Notes under the pieces: generated by a model
What the model was told of the DNA's origin: nothing
Database searches by the model: none
The model's input: only the letters and a program-made list of their open reading frames with translations
Program-made: the position numbers and the translations under genes
Origin: Candidatus Gastranaerophilales bacterium
Lineage (GTDB): Bacteria; Cyanobacteriota; Vampirovibrionia; Gastranaerophilales; Gastranaerophilaceae
Reading direction: 5' to 3'
Length of the DNA stretch: 33,536 bases
NCBI GenBank assembly: GCA_944324375.1
Contig: CALUWB010000019.1
Coordinates: 1 to 33,536, forward strand
Part shown: one piece after another, positions 1 through 33,347 of the stretch
How positions within the stretch are numbered: the stretch's first letter is position 1
Layout of the letters: each line of letters opens with the position of its first letter

Positions 1-786
1 GTTCCCTACCGTTACGGTTATAATACCGATACGTCCGTCTACAGGAGCTTTTACAAGGGTGTAGCTGAGGTTTCTGTTGCTGTCGTTATATCTTGCCTGT
101 GCTGATGCAAGCTGTGCTTTCAGGGAATCTCTTTGTGAAAGCAGGTTGTCGTACTGTGATTTTGCAATGTAATCCTTTTTTACAAGTTCTGAAGCTCTGG
201 CAAGCTGTTTTTCGGCATAAGCAAGCTGGGCTTTTGTATTTGCAACATCAGCTTTTGCACCTAAATAATTCATTTCAGATGTTTTAAAATCGTTGTATTT
301 TGAATCTATTTCTTGTTTTGAGATTGCTCCATTAATTCCTGATTTTTGGTATCTATCATAAGTTTGTTTTGCATAGTTATATTGATATTGTGTTTCCATA
401 AGATGTTTTTCTGCAGATATTAATGCAGACTTTGCACTCATAGCTTCTGCATCTAAGTCAGGTGTATCAATAGTAGCTAAAAGTTGTCCTTTTTCGACCT
501 TTTCTCCTAATTGAACATATCTTTGGTTTACTAAACCATTTATTCTTGAAAAGATTTCTGTATGTAAAAATGGTTTTAATTCTCCTGATAATTCCAATTT
601 ATTTTCACCACTTGTAATGATAGGAGTTTCTGTAATTGCAATATATTCTGCTTGTCTGGCTTCTCTTGCAGTGTTTATAAATCTTACAATTTTAGGAATT
701 AGTCCAATAATGAACAGAATTAGAACAATAGATATAATTAATTTTTTCTTATCTTTCATTAATTTGTTAGTCAAGTTTTTAATCAT
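1..786 (-). CDS. RND efflux periplasmic adaptor (HlyD/AcrA family), 3' end missing
   Basis: The frame is open from the left edge to a start near 786, giving 262 codons without the C-terminus. It should be the periplasmic adaptor that links the RND pump to the outer membrane channel. An N-terminal membrane anchor (about residues 20-36, LIISIVLILFIIGLIPK) is followed by a biotinyl-lipoyl-like half (QLGEKVEKGQLLATIDTPDL), a long alpha-helical hairpin rich in Ala, Gln, Lys and Tyr, and the return strand (VKAPVDGRIGIITVTVGN), the normal adaptor order. I chose ATG 786 because AAGGTGG lies 6 bases upstream and the start overlaps the permease stop by 8 bases; ATG 759 is in frame but has no ribosome binding site. 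Bases 1-240 are about 44% G+C while the rest of the gene is about 28%, with no break in the reading frame. Confidence 0.88.
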   Translation of the reverse strand, partial: MIKNLTNKLMKDKKKLIISIVLILFIIGLIPKIVRFINTAREARQAEYIAITETPIITSGENKLELSGELKPFLHTEIFSRINGLVNQRYVQLGEKVEKGQLLATIDTPDLDAEAMSAKSALISAEKHLMETQYQYNYAKQTYDRYQKSGINGAISKQEIDSKYNDFKTSEMNYLGAKADVANTKAQLAYAEKQLARASELVKKDYIAKSQYDNLLSQRDSLKAQLASAQARYNDSNRNLSYTLVKAPVDGRIGIITVTVGN

Positions 787-16613: not shown

Positions 16614-16646
16614 TTTTATATCACTTTATATTGTAGTAGATTGTGT

Positions 16647-18383
16647 ATGATAAGTCAGTTTAGTTTAAATCAACAAAATAATTCGAATATAAATAGTTCA
16701 TCTCTACAAAACAAAGGTTTAAAAAACAAGCCTAGTTTTGCAGGGCGTGAGAAAGCTGGTAGTGCAGTAATTGGTTTAATTCAAAAATGTGAAAAAGAGC
16801 CAATGGTAAATGTTGCGGCTATTGATTTGTTAACAGCAATATTGCCACGTTCAATATGGGAATCATTAACTAATATTTTTGCTGGTTTTGAAGCATTTAG
16901 AAGAGAGTCATCAGGTCTTATTGTAAACTGTTTAATACCAGGGTTTATAACATTAGGAATAGCTAAATTAACTAATAATATGATAATGGGTAAAGGAAAA
17001 TCAAATTTATCAAATTGTTGGGCAAGTTCAGATACAATAACAAAAGTAACAGATCATTATAAAGATGCAGAAAAAACAGATGCATTTAAAGATGGTATGA
17101 AAATATTTAATAATGAGAAACATGCCAGAGTATATGCAGTAAATTATAATTTATTAAATGAGGCATCAGGTATTGATGGATTTAAGCAAGTGAAGTTTAA
17201 TGAATCAATGTCAAAACAAGAACTTTCTGAAGCCGCAGAAAAATTAACAAGAATAAGTTTTAAATATAAAGATAAAAAATTATCAGAAGAATTAATTGAA
17301 AAAACACCTAAAAAACGTTTAAAAGCAATCTTTAGATCAATATCATCAAAAACACATGCAGCACAAGATGTAAAATTTGGAAAAGGTTTAGAAGCAGGTT
17401 TAGAAAGAACTTTAACAGATACTCACCAATTGGTTAAAGGTATGGTTAAAGAAGGAATCAAACCAGAAAATGTTGCAGATTATGTTAAACGTTCAAAACG
17501 TTTGTTAAAGATAAAGAGTTTATTAGGAATGGCAGTAATATTGCCATTAGCAGCATCAATGCAACATATAAATAGAAAAATTACAGAAAAATTATCAGGT
17601 GTAAAAGGTGCTCCAATTCATGATAATTACGGAAAAGAAGGTTCAAGAAAAACAGCAGACGAGATAAAATCAGAAAAGGCAGCTTTAATTGGTCGTAAGA
17701 TATGGGCAGTATCATCAATGCTTGGTGTTGCGATGTTATCAATGATGAAATTGCCAAATATTAAGACTTTGAAAAATATTGTTCAGTTTAAAGATCAATT
17801 CCCAACAATGGATCAAGCAAGAGCAATTTCTGCCGTAACATTTGCATCAAGAATGGCAGTAGCAGATGATGAAGCTGAATTAAAAGAAGCTCATACAAGA
17901 GATATCGTAACATTCTCAAGCATGTATTTCTTAGGAGATTATGGTGCTAAGGCAATGGCTTCTCATTTAGAAAAGAAAACAGGTGTAGAATTATTAAATA
18001 AAACATTTGATCCAGCTAAGAATAAAGGATTCTTTGCAAAAGCTAAGAATTGGGTATTACATACTCACTTAAAATCATCAGATGAGTTAAGAGGTGTTGG
18101 AAAAACATTAGAAGAAGCAACAAAATTGCGAGCAAAATGTCAAATGGCAAATTTAGGAACATCTTTAGCATTGTTAGGCGTAGTTGTTCCAATTTATACA
18201 AGGTTAAAGACAAAAAAACATGATGCTGAAAAAGCAAAATTAAGAGCCTTAAATGCTAGCAAATTTGAATCTTTACCAGTTTTAAATAAACATAATATAA
18301 TTTCATCCAATATAACTTCTAAAGGAAATAATCATCAGTTTCAATCATTAAAACAGTTTAAAGCGAAAGTCGAAGTAAAATAA
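16647..18383 (+). CDS. Membrane protein of unknown function, first of a tandem paralogous pair
   Basis: A 578-residue protein that matches no family I know. I start it at ATG 16647; a TTG 6 bases earlier is possible and neither has a clear ribosome binding site. Residues 1-28 are a polar tail rich in Asn, Ser and Gln, ending in KPSFAG (28-33). Then comes EPMVNVAAIDLLTAILPRSI (51-70) and hydrophobic segments near 91-108, 291-306, 352-367 and 503-518, separated by basic soluble stretches. Residues 401-421 (SRMAVADDEAELKEAHTRDI plus V) align without gaps with residues 372-392 of the next gene product, as do EP, D and PR near the N-terminus. The stop overlaps the next start (TAATG), so the two are coupled and probably act together. 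There is no signal peptide or enzyme motif. Confidence 0.8.
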   Translation: MISQFSLNQQNNSNINSSSLQNKGLKNKPSFAGREKAGSAVIGLIQKCEKEPMVNVAAIDLLTAILPRSIWESLTNIFAGFEAFRRESSGLIVNCLIPGFITLGIAKLTNNMIMGKGKSNLSNCWASSDTITKVTDHYKDAEKTDAFKDGMKIFNNEKHARVYAVNYNLLNEASGIDGFKQVKFNESMSKQELSEAAEKLTRISFKYKDKKLSEELIEKTPKKRLKAIFRSISSKTHAAQDVKFGKGLEAGLERTLTDTHQLVKGMVKEGIKPENVADYVKRSKRLLKIKSLLGMAVILPLAASMQHINRKITEKLSGVKGAPIHDNYGKEGSRKTADEIKSEKAALIGRKIWAVSSMLGVAMLSMMKLPNIKTLKNIVQFKDQFPTMDQARAISAVTFASRMAVADDEAELKEAHTRDIVTFSSMYFLGDYGAKAMASHLEKKTGVELLNKTFDPAKNKGFFAKAKNWVLHTHLKSSDELRGVGKTLEEATKLRAKCQMANLGTSLALLGVVVPIYTRLKTKKHDAEKAKLRALNASKFESLPVLNKHNIISSNITSKGNNHQFQSLKQFKAKVEVK

Positions 18384-20095
18384 TGCAAATTATCAACCAA
18401 GAGTTAAGTACAAATTCATATAAAGTTTCAAACAGCCATAACCATAATGGTAGTAAGCCTCAATTCAAGGGTTTTTGGAATAGCACATATAAATTTTTAG
18501 CAGATGAACCTGTATGGGGTGCAACATTAGTTGATTTAGGAGCAATGGTAATTCCAAGAACTTGGACTGATATGAAAAAACGAGGTTTTAATGCTGGATT
18601 TGAAACAGGTTTTAGAGAAGCAGAATCTTCTGCAAATGATGCATTAATAGGAATGTATGGTGTTGCAGCTGGTACAATGATAGCTGGAGCTATTAATAAT
18701 AGATATAATGTTAAAGCTCATAAGATTTTTGCATCAGATGATGCAGTAAATGTTTATTCTGCAAAATGGGCAAAACATAATGGTAATATTGATTCTTATG
18801 CAAGAGATATTGTTGATAGTTTAGAAGCATATAACCCAAATTCAGCTCAAGCAAATGCAGAAGGTTATATAAAAATAGCTAATGAACATAAGCAAGGTAT
18901 AATTGATGATTTAAAATATGTAGCTGAAGGTGATAGAAAAACAATGGGTGATAGATGGAAAGAAGTTAATAAACGTCTATCAGCAAAAATATTAGAAGCA
19001 ACAGGTACCGAACAGCAATTTAGACTTATTCATAAAGAAGGTTCAGTAGAAAAAGTAACAGTATCTAATTCAAAAACATTACTTAATAACTTCTACAATA
19101 TGACAAAAGCATTAAAATCAGATAAAGTTGTAGGTAAAGTTGGTGAATTTGTAAAAGATTATAAAGGTTTTGGAAAAACAAGAACAGGAATAGGTATTTT
19201 AATTGCAGGTATTTTTGCAGTAATTGCACAACCTTTAAATGTATATTTATCTAAGAAAAGAACCGGTTCAGATGGTTTTGTCGGAGTAGAAGGTCGTAAA
19301 AAAGATAATTCTGCAAGTTTCAAAGCATTAAAAGTTGCAAGTGGTATTGGAATGATGATGATATCATTAGCTTCAATGGGTGCATTATCAAAAAATCCTT
19401 TAAAAATACCTAAGTTATTTATTGAAAAGAACCAATATAAGGGTAAAAATCCAACAATCAATCAATTTAAAACAGTATTTGGTTTAGCTATTACATCAAG
19501 ATTATTAACAGCAAGAGATAGAGATGAACATAGAGAAGTTGTTACAAAAGATGTATTAGGATTCTTTAATTGGTTAATGTTAGGTAATGTCGTTAACCAA
19601 TTGATATTGCATAAATTTCAAGCAAAAGATGCAAACTTGTTAAAACGTGCTCCATTAAATAAAGATGCAAGTATATGGAAAAAAATGGGTAATTTCTTGA
19701 GTTCTCCAATCGCAACTCACTCTGAAGTAATAATTGATGGTTTAAAGAAGGAACGACCAGATATTAAATCTATTATAAAACCCGATGGTAAAGCAATGAA
19801 ATTTAGTGAAATGTTCAAAGCATTACCAAAAAATGGACAAGCAAGAAAGAATTTACGTTTATTAAACTTTGCTCAACTTAGTGGATATTTATATTCTGCT
19901 TTAGTTCTAGGTATAGGTATACCAAACTTAAATATTTATTTAACAAATTTAAGTGACAGACATAAAAAAGCTAAAATGGCAAAAATGATGCAACAAGAAC
20001 CTGCAACAGCTCAAGTATTTAAAGATATGAGAACAGTTGATAGACAAATAAATAAAACAGTATTTGGTAGTTTTAAAGAAACAAAAACTAATTAA
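18383..20095 (+). CDS. Membrane protein of unknown function, second of a tandem paralogous pair
   Basis: A 570-residue distant paralogue of the upstream gene product. It begins with a polar tail of about 24 residues ending in KPQFKGFW (25-32), then EPVWGATLVDLGAMVIPRTW (42-61) and RGFNAGFETGFREAESS. Hydrophobic segments lie near 86-103, 269-288, 319-335 and close to the C-terminus (LSGYLYSALVLGIGIPNLNI). Residues 356-395 (NPTINQFKTVFGLAITSRLL...) match 385-424 of its neighbour at an equivalent place, and the C-terminal end is again basic and polar. ATG 18383 overlaps the previous stop by one base and has no strong ribosome binding site, so translation is probably coupled. Its stop shares TTAA with the convergent tmk stop. 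Function unknown; a heteromeric membrane complex is a reasonable guess. Confidence 0.8.
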   Translation: MQIINQELSTNSYKVSNSHNHNGSKPQFKGFWNSTYKFLADEPVWGATLVDLGAMVIPRTWTDMKKRGFNAGFETGFREAESSANDALIGMYGVAAGTMIAGAINNRYNVKAHKIFASDDAVNVYSAKWAKHNGNIDSYARDIVDSLEAYNPNSAQANAEGYIKIANEHKQGIIDDLKYVAEGDRKTMGDRWKEVNKRLSAKILEATGTEQQFRLIHKEGSVEKVTVSNSKTLLNNFYNMTKALKSDKVVGKVGEFVKDYKGFGKTRTGIGILIAGIFAVIAQPLNVYLSKKRTGSDGFVGVEGRKKDNSASFKALKVASGIGMMMISLASMGALSKNPLKIPKLFIEKNQYKGKNPTINQFKTVFGLAITSRLLTARDRDEHREVVTKDVLGFFNWLMLGNVVNQLILHKFQAKDANLLKRAPLNKDASIWKKMGNFLSSPIATHSEVIIDGLKKERPDIKSIIKPDGKAMKFSEMFKALPKNGQARKNLRLLNFAQLSGYLYSALVLGIGIPNLNIYLTNLSDRHKKAKMAKMMQQEPATAQVFKDMRTVDRQINKTVFGSFKETKTN

Positions 20096-24748: not shown

Positions 24749-26536
24749 CTATACATTTACCCCAGCTTCAGATTTGTTTTTGAATTGCATTTCGTAAAGC
24801 GCTTTGTATTGGCCGTTTTCGATTTGCATTAATTCATCGTGTGTCCCAAGTTCTACAAGATGCCCTTCATTGATTACAGCAATTCTGCTTGCGTTTTGGA
24901 TTGTAGAAAGACGGTGAGCGATTACAAATACTGTTTTGTCTTTCATTAAGTTGTCAATTGCTTTTTGTACAATAGCTTCTGATTTGTTATCAAGAGCAGA
25001 TGTTGCTTCATCTAGAATAACAATTGGAGCATCTTTGATGAATGCACGAGCAATTGCTACACGTTGTTTTTGACCACCTGATAATAAAATCCCACGCTCT
25101 CCTATTTGGGTATCAAGTCCGTCTTTTAAAGTTGAGACAAACTCATCTAAGTATGCCATTTTAAGAGTGTTTTGGATTTCTTCTTCTGTTGCGTTTTCTT
25201 TTCCTAGGAGAATGTTTTCTCTGATAGTTCCTGAGAACAAGAAATTATCTTGGAATACAACAGCTATATTTTGTCTAAGAGATTTTAATGAATAATCTCT
25301 GATATCTATTCCGTCAATTTTTATAGAACCTGATTTGATATCATAGAAACGAGGGATAAGGCTAACAATTGTAGATTTTCCACCACCTGAATTCCCAACA
25401 AGTGCGATTGTTTCACCTTTCTGCACTGATAGGCTGATATGATTTAATACAGGTTTGTTTTTTATGTATTCAAAACAAATATCTTCGAATGTGATTGATG
25501 ATTCCACAGGTTTCAATTCAATTGGGTTTGGTTTATCGGTGATTTTAGGTTTCGCATCAAGAACTTTAAAAATACGTTCTATTGCCATAAATGAGAATTG
25601 AACAGAGTTGAAATTATTACCTAAATTTTTAACAGGTTGGTAAAGCATAATCAATGCTGTGATGAAAGAAACAAAGTTTCCTGATGTGATTTTGTGAGTA
25701 AGAATAAGATGAGATCCATATCCTATTGCAATACCAATACCAATAGAAACAATAACGTGCATCATAGGTGAAAGCCAAGATGTACGTTGAATCATTTTGA
25801 TTTTTAGAGTGAAAATATTTGATAAAATATCTTTGAATTTGTTTTCTTGTTTAGGTGCAAGGTTGTAAGAAATGATTGTTTTGTTACCTGCAAAAGATTC
25901 ATTGTAAGCAGTAATAACTGCAGAACCTGCTGTAACAGATTTATCCATAACAGTTTTGATACGTTTTCTGATATTAGCAAGAGGAGCAAAAGCACAACCA
26001 AGAACAACAGTTGCGATAAGCGCTAATTGCCAAGAGTTGTAGAATAGTACACATACTAATGATATTGATGAGAAAATACGAGAAACGAATGTTTTTAGGT
26101 TTTCTAAAAGACCTGAACAAGCAACATCAGCATCATTATTGAAACGATAAACGATATCTCCTGATTTTTTCTTGTCAAAATACCCAGTTTCAAACGTAAG
26201 CATTTTTTTATAGAGTGTCATTTTAAGATCGTTTGTAATTTTACCACCTACCCAAGTATTTAGGTATGTAGCTGAATAGTTAAGGAATCCTTGAATAGAT
26301 GTAAATGCAACAATCCCAAATGGAATATACCAAGGTGATTCTATTGTTTTTTCAACCATAACTAAATCCATGTATGGTTTAAGAGATAGAGCAATAACAG
26401 CATCTAATGAACCTATTGGAATACATATGAGCATAGCTAACATAGCTCTAAACCAGTATGGTTTAACATACGGTAATATCCTTGAATAATTTATATACGC
26501 TTGTGTGTTTTTTAGTTTTTCTAGTAGAGTGTTCAT
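24749..26536 (-). CDS. msbA: MsbA-type ABC exporter (lipid or lipid-linked glycan flippase)
   Basis: A 595-residue half-transporter with fused membrane and ATPase domains that works as a homodimer. Six membrane helices fill residues 30-310, including FLNYSATYLNTWVGGKITND and the MsbA-like FETGYFDKKKSGDIVYRFNN. The nucleotide-binding domain has Walker A GNSGGGKST (381-389), the Q-loop VVFQDNFLFSGTIRENI, signature LSGGQKQRVAIARA (485-498), Walker B IVILDEATSALD and the switch His in VIAHRLSTI. MsbA proteins flip lipid A or lipid-linked sugars. It is the last gene of the nonulosonate operon, 10 bases after the KdsC-like gene, so export of the decorated glycan is likely. It is slightly richer in G+C than its upstream neighbours. 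TAGGA precedes ATG 26536. Confidence 0.9.
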   Translation of the reverse strand: MNTLLEKLKNTQAYINYSRILPYVKPYWFRAMLAMLICIPIGSLDAVIALSLKPYMDLVMVEKTIESPWYIPFGIVAFTSIQGFLNYSATYLNTWVGGKITNDLKMTLYKKMLTFETGYFDKKKSGDIVYRFNNDADVACSGLLENLKTFVSRIFSSISLVCVLFYNSWQLALIATVVLGCAFAPLANIRKRIKTVMDKSVTAGSAVITAYNESFAGNKTIISYNLAPKQENKFKDILSNIFTLKIKMIQRTSWLSPMMHVIVSIGIGIAIGYGSHLILTHKITSGNFVSFITALIMLYQPVKNLGNNFNSVQFSFMAIERIFKVLDAKPKITDKPNPIELKPVESSITFEDICFEYIKNKPVLNHISLSVQKGETIALVGNSGGGKSTIVSLIPRFYDIKSGSIKIDGIDIRDYSLKSLRQNIAVVFQDNFLFSGTIRENILLGKENATEEEIQNTLKMAYLDEFVSTLKDGLDTQIGERGILLSGGQKQRVAIARAFIKDAPIVILDEATSALDNKSEAIVQKAIDNLMKDKTVFVIAHRLSTIQNASRIAVINEGHLVELGTHDELMQIENGQYKALYEMQFKNKSEAGVNV

Positions 26537-26546
26537 AATTTCCTAT

Positions 26547-27020
26547 TTAATTTTCTGATAATAGTATTTCAATAAATTCTCTAATAGCACCTTCACCACC
26601 TTTATTCTGTAAAATTTTTATGTTTTCAAGATTTTTTACTTTTGTTACTGCATCATTTGGACAAGCTTTATATTTGACAGCATTGAGTAGTTCAATATCA
26701 TTGATATCATCTCCAATATAAGCAACTTCATCAAGCGTAATACTTAATTCATTACAAATATTTTTGACAAAATCTAATTTTGTCCAAGTCCCCATCGATA
26801 AATAGTCAACTTTAAGTTTTTCAGCTCGCTTTTTTACTATAGGTGTATTTTCAGATGTTATTATAGCTGTTTTTATTCCAGCTTCTTTTAATAATTTAAA
26901 TCCCATTCCATCCCTGAAATTAAATTTTTTTAATTCAATTCCATTTTCGGCATAATACATACAACCATCTGTCATTGTGCCATCTACATCTGTCGCAAAA
27001 AGTTTGATATTAGTCATCAT
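26547..27020 (-). CDS. KdsC/YrbI-type HAD phosphatase, probably for a nonulosonate 9-phosphate
   Basis: A 157-residue HAD-superfamily phosphatase of the C0 (YrbI/KdsC) type. The nucleophile motif is TDVDGTMTDG with D11 and D13, followed by the family-typical KKFNFRDGMGFKLLKEAG, motif II Thr/Ser in IITSEN, and motif III YIGDDINDIEL with D104 and D105. Homologues remove phosphate from KDO-8-P or from acylneuraminate/KDN-9-P. Here the neighbours are NeuA and NeuB, and no KdsA or KdsB is present, so the 9-phosphate role is the better inference. ATG 27020 follows GGAGA with 6-7 bases between and overlaps the neuA stop by 11 bases; ATG 27017 is an alternative. Confidence 0.87.
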   Translation of the reverse strand: MMTNIKLFATDVDGTMTDGCMYYAENGIELKKFNFRDGMGFKLLKEAGIKTAIITSENTPIVKKRAEKLKVDYLSMGTWTKLDFVKNICNELSITLDEVAYIGDDINDIELLNAVKYKACPNDAVTKVKNLENIKILQNKGGEGAIREFIEILLSEN

Positions 27021-27684
27021 TATATTTCTCCATTAATTTTTCAATCAATAGAAAATCATCTGGTTCATCTATTTCTACTGCCGTATATTCCGGCATTTCA
27101 TACACAGAAATCTTACCAGATAATCTATTTTTTTCTTTAAGAATGTTTTTAATAGAATTTATATAGCAAGCACCATTTTCCATGAATATCCCATCAAAAT
27201 TTTGTCTTCTTGGGCGCTTTTTATAATCATAATTTATAGATTTCCCATTGTGAGTCCAAAAAAATCTTTTTGATAAAACACAGGATAAAGCAGAGTCTGC
27301 TGAGTCTAGTATGAATTTGTTATACATTTCATTAATAAATTCTGATTTTAAAAGTGGTGAGGTAGCTTGAATTAAAAATAATAAATCATCATTATTATAT
27401 TTGTTATTTTCTAAATATTCTAGCATAACACTTTCGGTCGATGAATTATCTTGTGCATTTTCTGCTTTTCTGTCATAGATTTCAACTTTTGACAAGTTAA
27501 AATCTATGACAGTTTGTTTAATTTCCATGCTATCCGTTGCAATAATAACTTTATCAATACAAACAGCATCATTAGCAGCCTTTGCAGTCCAATATACAAG
27601 TGGCTTCCCTGCTAATAATTTTATATTTTTTAAAGGTATTGATTTACTTCCACCTCTGACTGGTATAAATGCTATATTTGTCAT
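27010..27684 (-). CDS. neuA: Acylneuraminate cytidylyltransferase (CMP-sialic acid synthetase type)
   Basis: A 224-residue enzyme that joins CMP to a nine-carbon ulosonic acid, using CTP. The nucleotide-binding signature PVRGGSKSIPLKNIKLLAGK (8-27) with following PLVYWTA is that of the NeuA/LegF/PseF group, not KdsB. Further matches are VIIATDSMEI, LLFLIQATSPLLKSEFINEM and the C-terminal YTAVEIDEPDDFLLIE. The precise sugar (Neu5Ac, legionaminate, pseudaminate or KDN) cannot be told. It starts inside the stop of the methyltransferase gene (ATGA, 27681-27684) and its end overlaps the phosphatase start, so the three are coupled. Confidence 0.92.
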   Translation of the reverse strand: MTNIAFIPVRGGSKSIPLKNIKLLAGKPLVYWTAKAANDAVCIDKVIIATDSMEIKQTVIDFNLSKVEIYDRKAENAQDNSSTESVMLEYLENNKYNNDDLLFLIQATSPLLKSEFINEMYNKFILDSADSALSCVLSKRFFWTHNGKSINYDYKKRPRRQNFDGIFMENGACYINSIKNILKEKNRLSGKISVYEMPEYTAVEIDEPDDFLLIEKLMEKYNDD

Positions 27685-28817
27685 ATATTTTTGTACTCAC
27701 TATAAAAAGTCATATCGCATTTTTTTAGTAGTGCCATTGCATAATTGTAATGTTCTATATTAATATCATCAACGGCTCTATTTTTATTTGCTTTTTTACA
27801 TATTATTGCGCCATCTGAATAAATATGAGCGTTTGGATTATATCCAGCACACTCTATGACATATGTCAAAGTTTCTTGTGAAAAATTATATACATGAGCA
27901 TTTTGCAAATAATGAAATATATTATTTCTATAATTTGTTTGAATTGTTTCTATTGTAGGAACTGCAATATATAATAATCCGTCTTCTTTCAACAAACTTT
28001 TTATACCCATTAGAAAATCTACAGGATTTACTATATGCTCTATGACATGATTTAAAATAATTAAGTCTGCTTGTCCATATTTTCCCAAGGTTTCGGTACT
28101 GCCAACTTCTATATCTAAACCTTTGCTTTTTCCAATTTCAATATATTCTTTACCTAAATCTACTCCCTTTATTGTGGCGCCTCTATCTTTAAATGCTTTT
28201 AGAATTCCTCCCATTCCAGTTCCAATTTCATATACAATTTTATTTTCAAAAGTAAAAGAAAAATTATTTATTATATTTTCAATGATTTTGTTACCAATAT
28301 TTACTTGGTTATTAAAAAATTTTTCTTTATCATTATTTACAAATGTATATAACTCTCTATATTCTATATTATAAAAATCATTTAATGTTTTTTCGTCATA
28401 ATATGGATTACTTCTAATCAATCCACAATTTTTGCATATTACTGTGTTAATCTCTATACCATAACGATCTCTTATCGCAAGCAACTTATCATTATTTGCA
28501 CCACATAAACAACTTCTATGTGTCATTTTATATTCATGATTATTAGTCTTGTTTTTTATTTGCTCTTTTAAAACTTTTTTTTCTGGATTTAAATTAAAAC
28601 CTCTATTGGCAGATAAAAAATACCCTTCTTCTCTTGCTAAATCTATAAATTCTGATATTACTTGGTTATTGACTTTAATAGATTGATTTCCAATTTCATT
28701 TCTTAAATTATGTAATTCTTTTCTTGGAGAATAAAACTTAAATTTTATCCAACAAATGGTTAAAATTTTATGATTATTTTCATTTTTAACAGAAAAAATA
28801 TTTTCAATAAATTTCAT
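27681..28817 (-). CDS. SAM-dependent methyltransferase with Cys-rich zinc-like insert
   Basis: A 378-residue protein. ATG 28817 is chosen because a perfect AGGAGGG lies 4 bases before it, itself overlapping the neuB stop; an ATG 15 bases upstream would place that site inside the gene. The N-terminus carries the locus-wide motif HKILTICWIKFKF (16-28). C103, C105, C128 and C131 (SCLCG...CKNCG) form a likely zinc knuckle of the kind seen in sugar C- or O-methyltransferases. The class I Rossmann domain has motif I VYEIGTGMGGILKAF (195-209), an acidic end of strand 2 (KGVDLG) and motif IV ADLIILNHVIEHIVNPVDFL. In this operon a surface sugar is the plausible substrate. Confidence 0.85.
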   Translation of the reverse strand: MKFIENIFSVKNENNHKILTICWIKFKFYSPRKELHNLRNEIGNQSIKVNNQVISEFIDLAREEGYFLSANRGFNLNPEKKVLKEQIKNKTNNHEYKMTHRSCLCGANNDKLLAIRDRYGIEINTVICKNCGLIRSNPYYDEKTLNDFYNIEYRELYTFVNNDKEKFFNNQVNIGNKIIENIINNFSFTFENKIVYEIGTGMGGILKAFKDRGATIKGVDLGKEYIEIGKSKGLDIEVGSTETLGKYGQADLIILNHVIEHIVNPVDFLMGIKSLLKEDGLLYIAVPTIETIQTNYRNNIFHYLQNAHVYNFSQETLTYVIECAGYNPNAHIYSDGAIICKKANKNRAVDDINIEHYNYAMALLKKCDMTFYSEYKNI

Positions 28818-28825
28818 GTTCCCTC

Positions 28826-29725
28826 CTAACATTGATTTATTAAATTAATGTTATGTTTTAATTTTTTACGTTGAACTGCCTCAATATCTAAAATTTCTTT
28901 ATTTTTGTAGTTAAGAGCTAAATAAGCTTGCCTTAAATCTCTCGCAAGTTTCATTAGTCCTTGAGGTTCTAAACTAGCGGCATGATCAGTTCCTTTCCAA
29001 GTTCTATCTAATGTAAAATGTCTTTCAAAATACGTTGCACCTAATGCAAGTGCTGCTATATCTACGGCTATGCCTAAATGATGACCTGAAAAACCAATAG
29101 CTTTAACTTCATTACCATAAGTTTCTTTAATTCTTGTAATTTCGTTTAAACAAATATCTTCAAAAGGTACAGGATATCCTGATGTACAAGCATATATCAC
29201 CATGTCTTTAGCTCTGTTTTTTTCTTTGAAGAAATTAATTATTTTTCTTTCTTCTGCGTGAGTTGTCATTCCGAATGATAAGTGTATTTCACCAGTATAA
29301 TTATCTCTAAGATATTCAAGCATTTCAAAGTTAAGATTACTTGCTGATGGGACTTTTATTAATTTAGGATTTAAACTAACGATTTCTTTTGCTGCAGTTA
29401 AATCCCAAGTTGATGTTGAGTAGATTAATCCTTCTTCGTCGCACCACTGTTTAAGTTGGCGATTTTGTTCTAAATCAAACTCTAAATATTCTCTATGTTC
29501 ACCATATGTTGAACCATAACTATTAATTGGATTTGGATGTGGAGCATTATATTCTTCAAATGTTAAAAGTTCTTTATTTGTTCTTTTTTGAAATTTTACA
29601 ATATCAATATACGCATTTTCATTCAAGAGCTTAAAAGTTCCTAAAAGTTTTATCATTTTGTGAGCTATTTGCATATCACCTTTATGATTGCACCCTATTT
29701 CAGCAATAATCACTGGTTTATTCAT
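28826..29725 (-). CDS. neuB: NeuB-type nonulosonic acid synthase lacking the SAF domain
   Basis: Condenses phosphoenolpyruvate with a six-carbon amino sugar or hexose phosphate to make a nine-carbon ulosonic acid. The 299-residue TIM barrel has IAEIGCNHKGDMQIAHKMI (7-25), VKFQKRTN, STSTWDLTAAKEIV, IKVPSASNLNF, GFSGHHLGIAVDIAALALGA and the key metal and substrate motif FERHFTLDRTWKGTDHAASL. Typical NeuB proteins are near 345-350 residues with a C-terminal antifreeze-like (SAF) domain; this one ends right after the barrel with a Lys-rich tail. AAGGAGAC precedes ATG 29725. Together with neuA and the HAD phosphatase it forms a complete short pathway. Confidence 0.92.
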   Translation of the reverse strand: MNKPVIIAEIGCNHKGDMQIAHKMIKLLGTFKLLNENAYIDIVKFQKRTNKELLTFEEYNAPHPNPINSYGSTYGEHREYLEFDLEQNRQLKQWCDEEGLIYSTSTWDLTAAKEIVSLNPKLIKVPSASNLNFEMLEYLRDNYTGEIHLSFGMTTHAEERKIINFFKEKNRAKDMVIYACTSGYPVPFEDICLNEITRIKETYGNEVKAIGFSGHHLGIAVDIAALALGATYFERHFTLDRTWKGTDHAASLEPQGLMKLARDLRQAYLALNYKNKEILDIEAVQRKKLKHNINLINQC

Positions 29726-29735
29726 TTTTGTCTCC

Positions 29736-30746
29736 TTATTTATTAATTAATTCTTTTTCTTCATTTTGTTTTAGTATTTCAATATTTTCATTTAATAATT
29801 CAGGATGTTCATCTACATAACTTTGAGTATATACATCCTTAAACATTCCTTTTAACCCTACTGGGTTGACTGAAATTATTTCTATATCTGGATAATATAT
29901 TTGTGCAAAAAATTTTAATTTTTTATATCCATTAATAACTTTATTTAATCTTAATGGTTGTTGCAAAGAAGTATTATTAAAATAACCATTATTTGTACAA
30001 TCACAACCTACTAAATATATTTTTTTAGGCATTGTATATAAAGCAAATTGAGCCGCACAAAAAGCAATTGAACCATAGTCCATTAATGGACAGGTCGAAA
30101 TATCTTGATAAAATTCCATATCAAAAGCATTGGAATAAAAACGATATGCGTTATCTCTTATTGCATCACTTTCTGGAATATTTGCACAACCACGATTATC
30201 TATTGATGTTACAAAATTAAAATGCTGCCCATAAAATTTTTTACAATTATAGTTTGAATATTTACTTAGCCATTGCCTCATATCATCTCTAGCATCTGTG
30301 CAAAAATAATAATCAAAATGAACTTTATCATATGATATAGCGCGATTGAGTGCAATGTGCTTATTTTGGCTATTTGGTTCATAATAACTTAGAGAAGGAC
30401 CACATCCTATAATAACAATTGAGTCATTCAGATGTACACCCTTAAATTGTGGAAATACTTTTGAATGAAGAAACGCTACAGATAACATTTTCTGTTGTTT
30501 TACTTTATATTCTTGAAGTTTTGTATTTATATAATTTTCTAGTTTCTTAAATTTATCAGAACGAGAATATACTTGTATTCCAAGAACATAAATTTTTTTA
30601 TTGATACTATTAATTTTAATTTTTACGAAATTTGCGAAATATTTCCTTATCGTATAACCACAACTTTGATATTTCTTATAAATGGTTATTCCCAAAATTT
30701 TTGTCTTAGAAATACCATGCTGTTTTTTATAGTAATAAATATACAT
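29736..30746 (-). CDS. Rossmann-type protein resembling DUF115/GT42, candidate nonulosonate transferase
   Basis: A 336-residue protein. The N-terminal 65 residues hold two copies of the locus motif, KTKILGITIYKKY and KKIYVLGIQVYSR. The core opens with SIVIIGCGPSLSYYEPNSQN, then KHIALNRAISYDKVHFDYYF and CTDARDD. This glycine-rich GxGPSL start followed by a lone N-R and a D-Y strand is the pattern of DUF115/MptE-like proteins, including the Maf flagellin glycosylation factors that transfer pseudaminic or legionaminic acid, and of GT42 sialyltransferases. Later KIYLVGCDCTNNGYF is a second buried strand. Lying 10 bases from neuB, it is the best candidate to use the CMP-sugar. Family assignment is by eye and moderate. 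Confidence 0.62.
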   Translation of the reverse strand: MYIYYYKKQHGISKTKILGITIYKKYQSCGYTIRKYFANFVKIKINSINKKIYVLGIQVYSRSDKFKKLENYINTKLQEYKVKQQKMLSVAFLHSKVFPQFKGVHLNDSIVIIGCGPSLSYYEPNSQNKHIALNRAISYDKVHFDYYFCTDARDDMRQWLSKYSNYNCKKFYGQHFNFVTSIDNRGCANIPESDAIRDNAYRFYSNAFDMEFYQDISTCPLMDYGSIAFCAAQFALYTMPKKIYLVGCDCTNNGYFNNTSLQQPLRLNKVINGYKKLKFFAQIYYPDIEIISVNPVGLKGMFKDVYTQSYVDEHPELLNENIEILKQNEEKELINK

Positions 30747-30761
30747 AAATAATTTCCACTC

Positions 30762-31823
30762 CTAATCTTTTTTGTCACAATTATTTAACTTTTCTAAAAT
30801 ATCAGAGATTATAAAATTACTTTCAGTTTTTTCTGTATCGTATTCAAAAATAGTTTCAGGTTTAACAAATGGATATTTTTTTAACGTATACGATGATAAA
30901 AATTTATCAACAGGAATATATGATAGTTCTTTTTGTCCATTATTTAGGTAATTTCGTAAAGGTGTATACAGAACAAACATTTTTTTTGCCACAGCTGATA
31001 ATCCCTCTGAAAAACCACTTCTTAATGCAATAATTGCCTTTGCTTTTGATGCGACATAAACAGATTCTGAAACATTTAATTCTGTTGAATTTTTATAAAT
31101 GCTAAACCCTAATTTTTTTAATGAATATTCTAAATTCTGCCAAAAATCATCTGACAATAATGGTATTGATAATGCATCTGGAGATAAAAAAATAAAATTA
31201 TTCACATCAATATTTTTTGAAGAGAGTATTTCATTACATTTATTTATACATTCGTCTTCAAATGTTATTTGTGGTTTCTTTATACTATTTAAATCTAAAC
31301 TTACAAAGTTTAACAATGTTTCAATGTGTGGTCTTGAATTTTGCTGGTAATTACACCCCATTTTATAAACAATGTTACATGGTATATGAACAAAAACTCT
31401 ATTATTACCAAGTTTATATACTGTTTTTTTTAAAATCCTCATATTTAACCAATTTACATCTACTAATTCTATTGGTATTGGGCTAAATATATGCCATGTT
31501 TTTCTTGGATGATTAGGATTTAAAAAACAAGGTTTTTTTGAATTATTTTTTTTACACCAAGCCTCTATGTAATAATTAATTAAGTATGCTTCACCTAAAC
31601 CAGTTCTAAGCAAATATATATCATCATATTTATCTTTAATATTAGCTATCATTTGTTTTATTAATTTAATTTCAAAATTTTCTTTTGGAAAAATTTTAAA
31701 ATATTTTTTAGTAGTCCCATTTTCTTCTTTTCTTCCATATTGAATAATTGGAATATTCAAAAAACGAATTTCACGTTCTTTTGTTTTACCATAATCTATT
31801 TTTATTTTTTCAAACAATTTCAT
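30762..31823 (-). CDS. Putative glycosyltransferase (GT-B-like), paralogue of the preceding gene
   Basis: A 353-residue protein that I cannot place in a named family. The N-terminus has the locus motif in the form REIRFLNIPIIQYGRK. The middle contains DKYDDIYLLRTGLGEAYLIN, and the C-terminal half has NNFIFLSPDALSIPLLSDDF plus W and AKAIIALRSGFSEGLSAVAK, the last resembling the donor-side loop of GT-B enzymes (a small ligand-binding LRSG followed by a helix). It shares these points with the gene starting at 32980: KYDDIY, an adjacent GE, NNFxxxxPxA, FWQ and LRSG. No signal peptide. GGAG precedes ATG 31823, which overlaps the upstream stop by one base (TAATG). Confidence 0.7.
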   Translation of the reverse strand: MKLFEKIKIDYGKTKEREIRFLNIPIIQYGRKEENGTTKKYFKIFPKENFEIKLIKQMIANIKDKYDDIYLLRTGLGEAYLINYYIEAWCKKNNSKKPCFLNPNHPRKTWHIFSPIPIELVDVNWLNMRILKKTVYKLGNNRVFVHIPCNIVYKMGCNYQQNSRPHIETLLNFVSLDLNSIKKPQITFEDECINKCNEILSSKNIDVNNFIFLSPDALSIPLLSDDFWQNLEYSLKKLGFSIYKNSTELNVSESVYVASKAKAIIALRSGFSEGLSAVAKKMFVLYTPLRNYLNNGQKELSYIPVDKFLSSYTLKKYPFVKPETIFEYDTEKTESNFIISDILEKLNNCDKKD

Positions 31824-32980
31824 TAAAATATCTCCAATAGTTCTTGTTTAGTAATATTATTCATATTGAATTCTTCAACATTTTTGAATTCTTTCATATT
31901 AAAGCCTTCAATTATTTCTTCTGTTGATAATGGATTAAATGAATCTCTATTTTTTGCTTTGGTATATATAATTTTCATTGGTGTGTTTGTTAATACCAAC
32001 AAATCCAATAATCCACTACGCAAGCCTATCAATTCTTTTGCTTGTTTTGTTAATTCAAATATTTCACCCAAGCTTAAATCACATTGTTTGAAATCTTTGA
32101 ATTTTTCTTTATTATCTCTTTTCATCACATTACAAAAAACATCTATTCCTTGTGATTCGTATTTTGTTTTCATATCTTGCCAAAATTCAAATTCGCAATC
32201 TTCACATGTGTTTGCCTCAGGAGTGAAAATAACAAAATTATCCAAATTTAATCCTATTTTATTAGCCTTTGATTTTAATGATTTTTTTATCTCATCTGAT
32301 ATATTTATTTCATTCATTTCAAAATCTGAATTTTTTAGTCCCATATAATTCAACACATGGTGTTTAAAATGTATTGTTGGATTTTCTTTGTCTCTAATAT
32401 TATCTTCAACATTATCGAAATGCCGTTTTGAAAACATTAATCTAAATGTTTTCTTTTGTTCTGCGATAAATTCATCCATATACAAAGAAACTTTTATTCT
32501 TTTGATTATTACAATAGGAATATCAGGGCATAATAATTCTACCAAGTCTTTATGATAATTTTGTAATCCAATCAATAAAGGTTTTTTAGAGCCATTTTTT
32601 TCAAAATAAGCTTTTGCTAATCTTAAAAAGAATACACTTTCTCCTATATTGGCATGCATTATATAGATATCATCATATTTATCAAAAAGTTTTTTATGTT
32701 GTTTATAAAAAATATTACCTAAATTATACTCATTATATTTATGGTTGAAGAAATAATACTGTCTTAAGTTTCCAATTTGTGTAAATTGTCTAGCAGGTAA
32801 ACCCAAAACTTTTATTTCTTTTGCAATACAACCCTCTGCAAAGGTTTTGTGAGCAGTTACAATTCCACCTAAAAATTTTTGCACTTTAGATGTTTTCTGT
32901 TTCTCTACTTGATAAACAGGGATTCCTAAAATAGATAAAGTTCGTATATTATTTATTTTTTGGTTTTTTATTATTTCCAA
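31823..32980 (-). CDS. Putative glycosyltransferase (GT-B-like) with TTG start
   Basis: A 385-residue protein, paralogous to the next gene. It must begin with TTG 32980, two bases after the preceding stop, with AAGGGAAG upstream, because there is no in-frame ATG for more than 150 codons and the N-terminal motif would otherwise be lost. That N-terminus has the locus motif twice: RTLSILGIPVYQVEKQ and KEIKVLGLPARQF. Then KYDDIYIMHANIGESVFFLR, DNFVIFTPEANTCEDCEFEF plus W, and KELIGLRSGLLDLLVLTNTP; the LRSGLxDLL segment is one I associate with uncharacterised proteins in capsule and LPS loci. The enzyme activity and sugar are not known. Coupled by TAATG overlap with the downstream paralogue. Confidence 0.7.
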   Translation of the reverse strand: MEIIKNQKINNIRTLSILGIPVYQVEKQKTSKVQKFLGGIVTAHKTFAEGCIAKEIKVLGLPARQFTQIGNLRQYYFFNHKYNEYNLGNIFYKQHKKLFDKYDDIYIMHANIGESVFFLRLAKAYFEKNGSKKPLLIGLQNYHKDLVELLCPDIPIVIIKRIKVSLYMDEFIAEQKKTFRLMFSKRHFDNVEDNIRDKENPTIHFKHHVLNYMGLKNSDFEMNEINISDEIKKSLKSKANKIGLNLDNFVIFTPEANTCEDCEFEFWQDMKTKYESQGIDVFCNVMKRDNKEKFKDFKQCDLSLGEIFELTKQAKELIGLRSGLLDLLVLTNTPMKIIYTKAKNRDSFNPLSTEEIIEGFNMKEFKNVEEFNMNNITKQELLEIF

Positions 32981-32981
32981 T

Positions 32982-33347
32982 TTATAAATCTTCCCTTAAT
33001 TCAAAATCTAACTTAAATTCACTATCTCTTTCTTTACATATTGCATAAGCACATTTTAGTCCTGATGGTTTATCATCATTAACTAAAATTCTTTCACCCA
33101 TTGGCATATCTGTTAGCAAATAGTCATATCTCAATTCATTTTCTGCCAAGAATTTTTTTAAATCTTCAAGATATTCTTCTTTTCTTGCAGTCATAAGAAT
33201 AACTTTATCTTCAGGAGATATTTTTGAATAAAATTCTTTTACCCCATCAAGTAAAGTGTCATAACCATCAATTTTGTAACCGTTATGTTTTACCAATGTT
33301 CCATCTACATCAAGTATCCAAGTTTTTGCAAGTGTTGATAATTCCAT
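32982..33347 (-). CDS. Small HAD-superfamily phosphatase of a surface-glycan locus
   Basis: A 121-residue HAD protein with motif I WILDVDGTLVKHNGY (D13 and D15), motif II Thr in VILMTARKEEYLEDL and motif III ERILVNDDKPSGLKC. It has no cap domain, so it probably acts on large or phosphosugar substrates. Small HADs of this type are commonly found among capsule and LPS biosynthesis genes, sometimes fused to nucleotidyltransferases. Its ATG follows the upstream stop directly (TAGATG), with GGGGAG 9 bases before it. The substrate is unknown. Confidence 0.82.
   Translation of the reverse strand: MELSTLAKTWILDVDGTLVKHNGYKIDGYDTLLDGVKEFYSKISPEDKVILMTARKEEYLEDLKKFLAENELRYDYLLTDMPMGERILVNDDKPSGLKCAYAICKERDSEFKLDFELREDL

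Follow-up and report, generated by a model that had tools for sequence, protein, structure and literature searches.

Sialyltransferases of GT42 such as Cst-I and CstII (PF06002) use a CMP-ulosonate as the donor and are inverting, metal-independent enzymes. In the available part of one paper, the inverting sialyltransferase families are given as GT29, 38, 42, 52, 80, 97, and 100 (PMC9587256). According to the available part of another, reports up to 2020 included no bacterial enzyme that moves legionaminic acid onto cell surfaces (PMC7439481). A route from mannose-6-phosphate through Kdn-9-P and Kdn to CMP-Kdn is described with Bacteroides thetaiotaomicron homologues, and the available text on this pathway in B. 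thetaiotaomicron and Prymnesium parvum names no KDN transferase (PMC6200933). Two further groups should be noted for their folds, namely the Maf flagellin O-glycosyltransferases (DUF115; PF01973) and the archaeal HPPK/MptE proteins; in the available part of one paper, another MptE-like protein is taken as belonging to folate metabolism (PMC12102941).

The window, that is, the whole analyzed stretch of 33,536 nucleotides from Candidatus Gastranaerophilales bacterium, contains a gene for a candidate transferase at 29736..30746 on the minus strand, the product of which is called T hereafter. The open reading frame is real, starting with ATG at exactly these coordinates and encoding 336 amino acids, and AGGAG-type ribosome-binding sites precede both T and the next gene. 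T is predicted, with good probability, to be a cytoplasmic glycosyltransferase that would transfer a 3-deoxy-2-ulosonic acid, here likely KDN, from its CMP form onto a growing surface glycan. The grounds are the identified genes and the families they belong to, a predicted fold like that of Maf and GT42, and a pairing with CMP-sugar synthetases that recurs among relatives; from these we infer KDN as the sugar, the acceptor, the inverting and metal-independent chemistry, and the roles of the neighbors. The sequence-only reading had proposed a nonulosonate transferase of unusual type. The fold match and the gene context support that proposal as a predicted activity, widened to CMP-ulosonates in general.

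T lies within a run of minus-strand genes in which neighbors are separated or overlap by no more than 15 bp, in the order from a small HAD-like protein to an MsbA-like exporter. The HAD-like protein (32982..33347), which scores 19.2 bits (E 0.001) with PF03031, where the cut-off is 21.8, is the first gene of the visible operon. It is followed by two proteins of unknown family that are weak paralogues of each other, at 31823..32980 (Pfam matches only far under cut-off) and 30762..31823 (no Pfam or NCBIfam match at E ≤ 1). Profile searching gave chance matches only in the PDB (E 0.15 and 0.63), and a gene 58% identical to that at 31823..32980 is present in the related genome L025. Both are probably further glycan-building enzymes. 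Beside T, as the earlier reading had it, and 10 bp downstream stands a neuB-like gene (28826..29725) for a NeuB-family ulosonate(-phosphate) synthase of 299 amino acids (PF03102, E 8e-66; NeuB/SiaC/PseI-type relatives in the PDB). A SAM methyltransferase of 383 amino acids (27681..28832; PF13489, 6.5e-15), a NeuA-like cytidylyltransferase acting as the putative CMP-sugar synthetase (27010..27684; PF02348, 3.3e-22; NeuA-type chains in the PDB), a KDN-9-phosphate phosphatase-like HAD protein (26547..27020), and an MsbA-type ABC exporter (24749..26536; TIGR02203, 530 bits against a cut-off of 602; PF00664/PF00005) follow. Elsewhere in the window, a pair of neighboring ORFs on the plus strand (16641..20095; 580 and 570 amino acids) have no Pfam match at E ≤ 0.001.

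The synthase and cytidylyltransferase families in the operon suggest how a donor for T may be supplied. The NeuB-like enzyme would condense PEP with mannose-6-phosphate to KDN-9-phosphate, the HAD enzyme would dephosphorylate this product, and the cytidylyltransferase would give CMP-KDN. T would then move KDN to an acceptor, probably lipid-linked, and the MsbA-like transporter may export the KDN-bearing acceptor. The window phosphatase scores 179.3 bits with the KDN-9-phosphatase model NF058599, 0.7 under the cut-off of 180. Its closest solved chains are PDB 3e81/3e8m/4hgo, named acylneuraminate cytidylyltransferase by the depositors; 3e81/3e8m are presumably the KDN-9-P phosphatase of B. thetaiotaomicron. 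The synthase, HAD phosphatase, and cytidylyltransferase belong to the same families as those of the described CMP-KDN pathway (PMC6200933). The window operon additionally has a putative transferase, for which KDN would be the substrate. In two genomes of the same family (L021 and L022), the T gene is accompanied by a synthase, a synthetase, and a phosphatase with 75-89% identity to those of the window, and no homologue of the window methyltransferase was found in the fetched stretches of these two. As to mannose-6-phosphate or ManNAc as the starting sugar, one gene of the UDP-GlcNAc 2-epimerase family is located elsewhere in the genome. KDN is our best guess for the sugar from these gene families, and a related nonulosonate that is methylated afterwards is possible. 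A second strong NeuB-family match (G000:C10:36050-36754, 257 bits) is found on a contig that also carries a flagellin, and this protein possibly belongs to a separate nonulosonate pathway for flagellin.

Matches to T were found at 14 places in 13 of the 98 genomes searched (its own and relatives). Eleven of the 14 matches, the window's own included, cover most of the catalytic domain; L012 and L014 match in the N-terminal module only, and L013 matches weakly. Scanning species genomes turned up 152 relatives, the best 80 of which were retained. These 80 are labeled Gastranaerophilales, Alphaproteobacteria, Akkermansia, Gilliamella, Saezia, Campylobacteraceae, Oscillospiraceae, Muribaculaceae, Fusobacterium, Planctomycetales, Elusimicrobiota, and others, though many are metagenome bins and their species labels may be wrong.

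The N-terminal part of T (aa 2-65; 30552..30743, minus strand) is an all-β module with a repeated K-x-LGI-x-IY-like motif, as delimited from the secondary structure of the model. This module is common to otherwise different proteins, since the L012 and L014 frames (458 and 433 amino acids) match only T aa 13-85 and 2-82, respectively. It weakly matches the TarM fold (Z 4.9 over 64 residues). By eye, a short β-rich N-terminal module with LGI-x-I-x-like motifs seems to open unrelated enzymes of the operon (T, 27681..28832, 30762..31823, and 31823..32980).

The catalytic domain of the Maf/GT42/MptE fold occupies aa 93-310 (29817..30470, minus strand), a range taken from the VIA-align superpositions with 5mu5 (93..310) and 2p2v (95..306). 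The letters that had drawn attention to T are all present (IGCGPSL at aa 113-119, ALNRA at 132-136, and DYYFCTDARD at 145-154), and the pattern is conserved rather than accidental, as ten positions are invariant in the alignment of 80 sequences: N134, G247, D249, S292, N294, P295, G297, L298, G300, and F302. The GCGPSL segment (aa 114-119; 30390..30407, minus strand) forms a nucleotide-binding-type loop with G116 in 79 and P117 in 75 of the 80 sequences. N134 (30345..30347, minus strand) ends strand 2, and G247 and D249 are in the GCDC segment (aa 247-250; 29997..30008, minus strand). The hallmark of the family is the SVNPVGLKG segment (aa 292-300; 29847..29873, minus strand), where six of the invariant residues are located, and the C-terminal signature of the alignment reads SxNPxGLKGxF.

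Existing models give the family no clear label. T scores 19 bits with PF01973 (MptE-like), under the curated cut-off of 34.6 bits, and has no match in NCBIfam at E ≤ 1. PF01973 is the sole Pfam family that matches more than one relative (63/80 at E ≤ 0.01). The CST-I model PF06002 is absent at E ≤ 1 for T and absent from the five families matched by the 80 relatives at E ≤ 0.01; PF06002 searches of 10 relatives and of the genomes of seven loci also gave no match, with control genomes equally silent. Single-sequence searches with T against the PDB, plasmids, phages, and viral contigs (one scan) found no match, and the family profile gave only a chance match in the PDB (E 0.53). Literature searched by title and abstract, mostly open papers without preprints, yielded no description of the family. 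Most likely, T, which passes no Pfam or NCBIfam cut-off, belongs to a distinct and so far unlabeled family within the Maf/GT42 fold group.

The gene neighborhood across relatives was examined with 86 clusters at 90% identity (75 from the best 80 of 152, 10 from the relatives' genomes, and the window). In 26 of the 86, the gene directly after T encodes a cytidylyltransferase, and in none does the gene directly before it. For unfused GT2 genes in the same stretches, the corresponding counts are 0/43 downstream and 1/43 upstream, and other genes of at least 200 amino acids outside the pathway have a cytidylyltransferase next to them in 13/555 each way (Fisher p = 9.6e-6 for T against GT2 and 1.1e-15 against the other genes, with shared ancestry ignored). 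Mere clustering within polysaccharide loci was rejected as the cause of the pairing on the basis of these rates. The synthetase HMM had been partly seeded with genes near T, and the Pfam count is independent of that HMM: PF02348 is the commonest family among 74 same-strand downstream neighbors (26), followed by RraA-like proteins (5) and NeuB (4), while GT2 is the commonest (12) among 69 upstream neighbors. The synthetase start lies between −41 and +41 bp of the T stop in 22 of 25 same-strand pairs within 300 bp. In the window, the immediate neighbor is neuB and not the synthetase. Since T genes are paired most often with a CMP-sugar synthetase and not with neuB, the family as a whole is better called CMP-ulosonate transferase. 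The expectation that T uses a CMP-sugar is thus strengthened, the family being tied to CMP-sugar activation far beyond the window locus.

Counted per stretch, the 86 clusters divide into those with NeuB (11), an aldolase (20), a synthetase-RraA fusion (6), a synthetase alone (13), or none of these (36), and all 50 in the first four classes have a synthetase in the stretch. Of the 50 clusters flanked by 4.5 kb or more on each side, 33 have a synthetase and 17 have none. The T domain is fused behind a GT2 domain in 18/86 according to a home-made HMM, with which Pfam agrees in both proteins scanned (L100 and L039). The synthetase is the next gene in 11/18 of these fused proteins versus 15/68 of those not so fused. 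Nine further relatives carry another N-terminal extension of at least 150 amino acids; two of them were scanned with Pfam, giving a PF03407 nucleotide-sugar transferase (L044) and PF08484 (L080). On an IQ-TREE phylogeny, in which 21 of 83 inner branches are open and the row of the window falls in no well-supported set, the NeuB label changes 11 times for 11 rows, RraA 6 for 6, and aldolase 12 for 20; if only well-supported branches are counted, 8, 6, and 8 changes, respectively, are still required. Shuffling leaves the NeuB and RraA labels just as clustered as observed, and the aldolase label is only partly clustered (12 changes versus a shuffled mean of 18.1). This scatter over the tree suggests that the pairings recur rather than descend from a single inheritance, as would be expected if T needs a CMP-activated acid and is tolerant as to which.

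A transferase of the same fold with a donor other than an ulosonate should also be considered, in which some or all members would use CDP-glycerol or another cytidine-linked group and neuB and neuA would serve other transferases. A gene for a TagD-like, CDP-glycerol-type cytidylyltransferase (PF01467) lies directly upstream of T in two sister relatives (L022:8282-8677 and L024:1885-2301), which hints at a different cytidine-linked donor there, and a PF02348-type cytidylyltransferase was not found in the fetched stretch of 36/86 relatives. TagD-like genes, however, occur in only 2 of 92 stretches searched. This donor is rather unlikely for T, considering also that PF02348 leads the downstream neighbors, that NeuB is among them, and that the synthetase pairing recurs across the tree.

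The AlphaFold model of T (pLDDT 93.2, pTM 0.83) was compared with known structures by a VIA-align run on the top chains of Foldseek. The best match by Z is Maf 5mu5 (Z 13.2, 186 residues, 4.1 Å), followed by Cst-I 2p2v (12.3), CstII 2x62 (11.9), the archaeal HPPK/MptE protein MjHPPK (PDB 8sd5, 11.9), the cell-division regulator SteA (11.4), a Pasteurella sialyltransferase 9c08 (10.8), thiamine pyrophosphokinase (10.4), and a mammalian GT29 enzyme (8.8); the next match below these groups has Z 5.0. In the Foldseek ranking, HPPK is first and alone under E 0.001 (1.6e-4), CstII is third (1.5e-3), and Maf is not among the top 50 matches listed. The comparison with Maf and CstII that the earlier reading had called for therefore places Maf and the GT42 sialyltransferases at the top by Z, and the structural match to transferases holds in this respect, but it is not exclusive to them, since HPPK/MptE, SteA, and thiamine pyrophosphokinase match too. 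The modeled fold of T is that of the Maf/GT42/MptE group. As this fold is shared by transferases and pyrophosphokinases, it does not decide the chemistry of T by itself; the gene context does.

Profile comparison with hhalign agrees with the suggested position of T between DUF115 and GT42. T is linked to Maf/DUF115 with 96% over 142 columns and to GT42 with 87% over 68 columns, whereas GT42 and Maf are linked directly with 36.6% over 40 columns. Control profiles from the same loci (NeuA, NeuB, GT2, and phosphatase) gave 0.2-4.1%. The fifth control, an aldolase, reached 45%, which is explained by a domain similar to T in the C-terminal half of that protein.

The Foldseek ranking and the PF01973 matches of the relatives would also be consistent with T being a pyrophosphokinase or another protein that binds nucleotides as MptE/HPPK does, MptE-like being the closest name in Pfam. 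The fold is alike, but T stays under the Pfam cut-off, and Maf and GT42 match its fold at least equally well. The neighbors are of polysaccharide type, with no pterin or folate gene seen among the 9 operon proteins or among the families listed (25 of 57 downstream and 25 of 61 upstream), and relatives of T are fused to GT2 domains or stand beside glycosyltransferases. We consider such a function very unlikely.

That T is a short Maf acting as a flagellin O-glycosyltransferase on the flagellins of its genome, which has 10 flagellin N-domain matches on other contigs, is very unlikely, even with Maf as the best structural match by Z. T aligns only to the central domain of Maf (5mu5 261..509 of 632), with which it shares the Rossmann-like fold, the GPSL loop, and the GxD motif, and its relatives stand among GT2, GT8, and flippase-type genes. 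A Pfam scan of 19 window proteins, a set outside which the ORFs between 5443 and 13961 fall, found no flagellar family, in line with the remark that flagellar genes are missing near T. The genome has two DUF115 proteins of its own above the Pfam cut-off, with 549 and 643 amino acids, on contig C11 (L118:7410-9059 on the minus strand, and L106); T is much shorter and has its own C-terminal motif. These two proteins probably serve flagellar glycosylation, so that the missing flagellar matches near T are no puzzle, and the assignment of T as a flagellin-glycosylating Maf was dropped on locating them.

T as a CMP-ulosonate transferase can be compared with GT42 at the residue level. Examples of GT42 were taken from a single order, in which 15 of 199 genomes matched PF06002 (11 over the cut-off), and nine of its proteins were aligned. 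In the global profile alignment, the GCGPSL loop of T is opposite GNGPSL of GT42, N134 is opposite the invariant Asn of the FRCN motif, and D249 is opposite the Asp of GIDF; by hhalign, GCDC corresponds to the GIDF segment of GT42 and to the GxDL of Maf. In contrast, the conserved His of GT42 (invariant H190 in the first row of the GT42 alignment, which we take to be H188 in CstII numbering) falls, according to the profile alignment, on T position 274, which is Trp, Tyr, or Phe in 80/80. The only His kept in at least 70% of the 80 members is H94. A (K/R)xHP motif is ascribed to sialyltransferase families in the available part of one paper (PMC12887879). It is present in 1/80 T members, and the nine aligned GT42 proteins also lack it in literal form at their conserved His. 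Lacking the GT42 His, and with a different C-terminal motif, T is filed neither as GT42 nor as Maf. On conservation, H94 (78/80), D151 (76/80), N294 (80/80), and K299 (74/80) are candidates for participation in catalysis.

NeuB, aldolase, and RraA family enzymes have a chemistry that gives a 2-keto-3-deoxy acid from PEP or pyruvate, and we infer that all three partner routes give such an acid here. The aldolase partner is represented by L045:7523-9100 (plus strand) and 14 other rows of the aldolase alignment, aldolase-like proteins of approximately 530 amino acids with a Maf-like C-terminal domain at loci with a CMP-sugar synthetase. Its N-terminal half resembles structures of the 4-hydroxy-2-oxovalerate-aldolase type (3dxi, Z 30.1, the best; 1nvm, Z 28.0), and it scores 81.7 bits with NF006049, under the cut-off of 229. 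The structural matches listed cover the N-terminal part only, so the C-terminal domain is assigned from profile similarity (80.9% to Maf, 53.7% to T, and 6.9% to GT42). The synthetase of L045 is of KdsB type (NF009905, 234.5 bits, under 255; NF003952, 215.9 bits, over 193). In other loci, an RraA-like aldolase domain fused to a cytidylyltransferase comes next after T, as found by Pfam in L015:7664-9001 (minus strand) and by phmmer in L030, L031, L054, L057, and L082; with this fusion, a single protein may both form an ulosonic acid and activate it. The sugar acid appears to be made in three ways across the T family, by NeuB, by a pyruvate aldolase, and by the synthetase-fused RraA-like domain.

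We tentatively propose, as a possibility somewhat short of even, that the T family constitutes a class of CMP-ulosonate transferases so far unrecognized but widespread among bacteria associated with the gut and with animals, from many phyla. Its members would serve interchangeably with at least three routes to 2-keto-3-deoxy sugar acids, namely PEP condensation by NeuB, the aldolase with a Maf-like C-terminus, and the RraA-synthetase fusion, and the last two may yield undescribed ulosonic acids. If this is true, the label MptE-like need not mean folate metabolism. The SxNPxGLKGxF motif, often beside a CMP-sugar synthetase, would flag gut bacteria with sialic-acid-like surface sugars, and the T family would point to operons possibly making new ulosonic acids.
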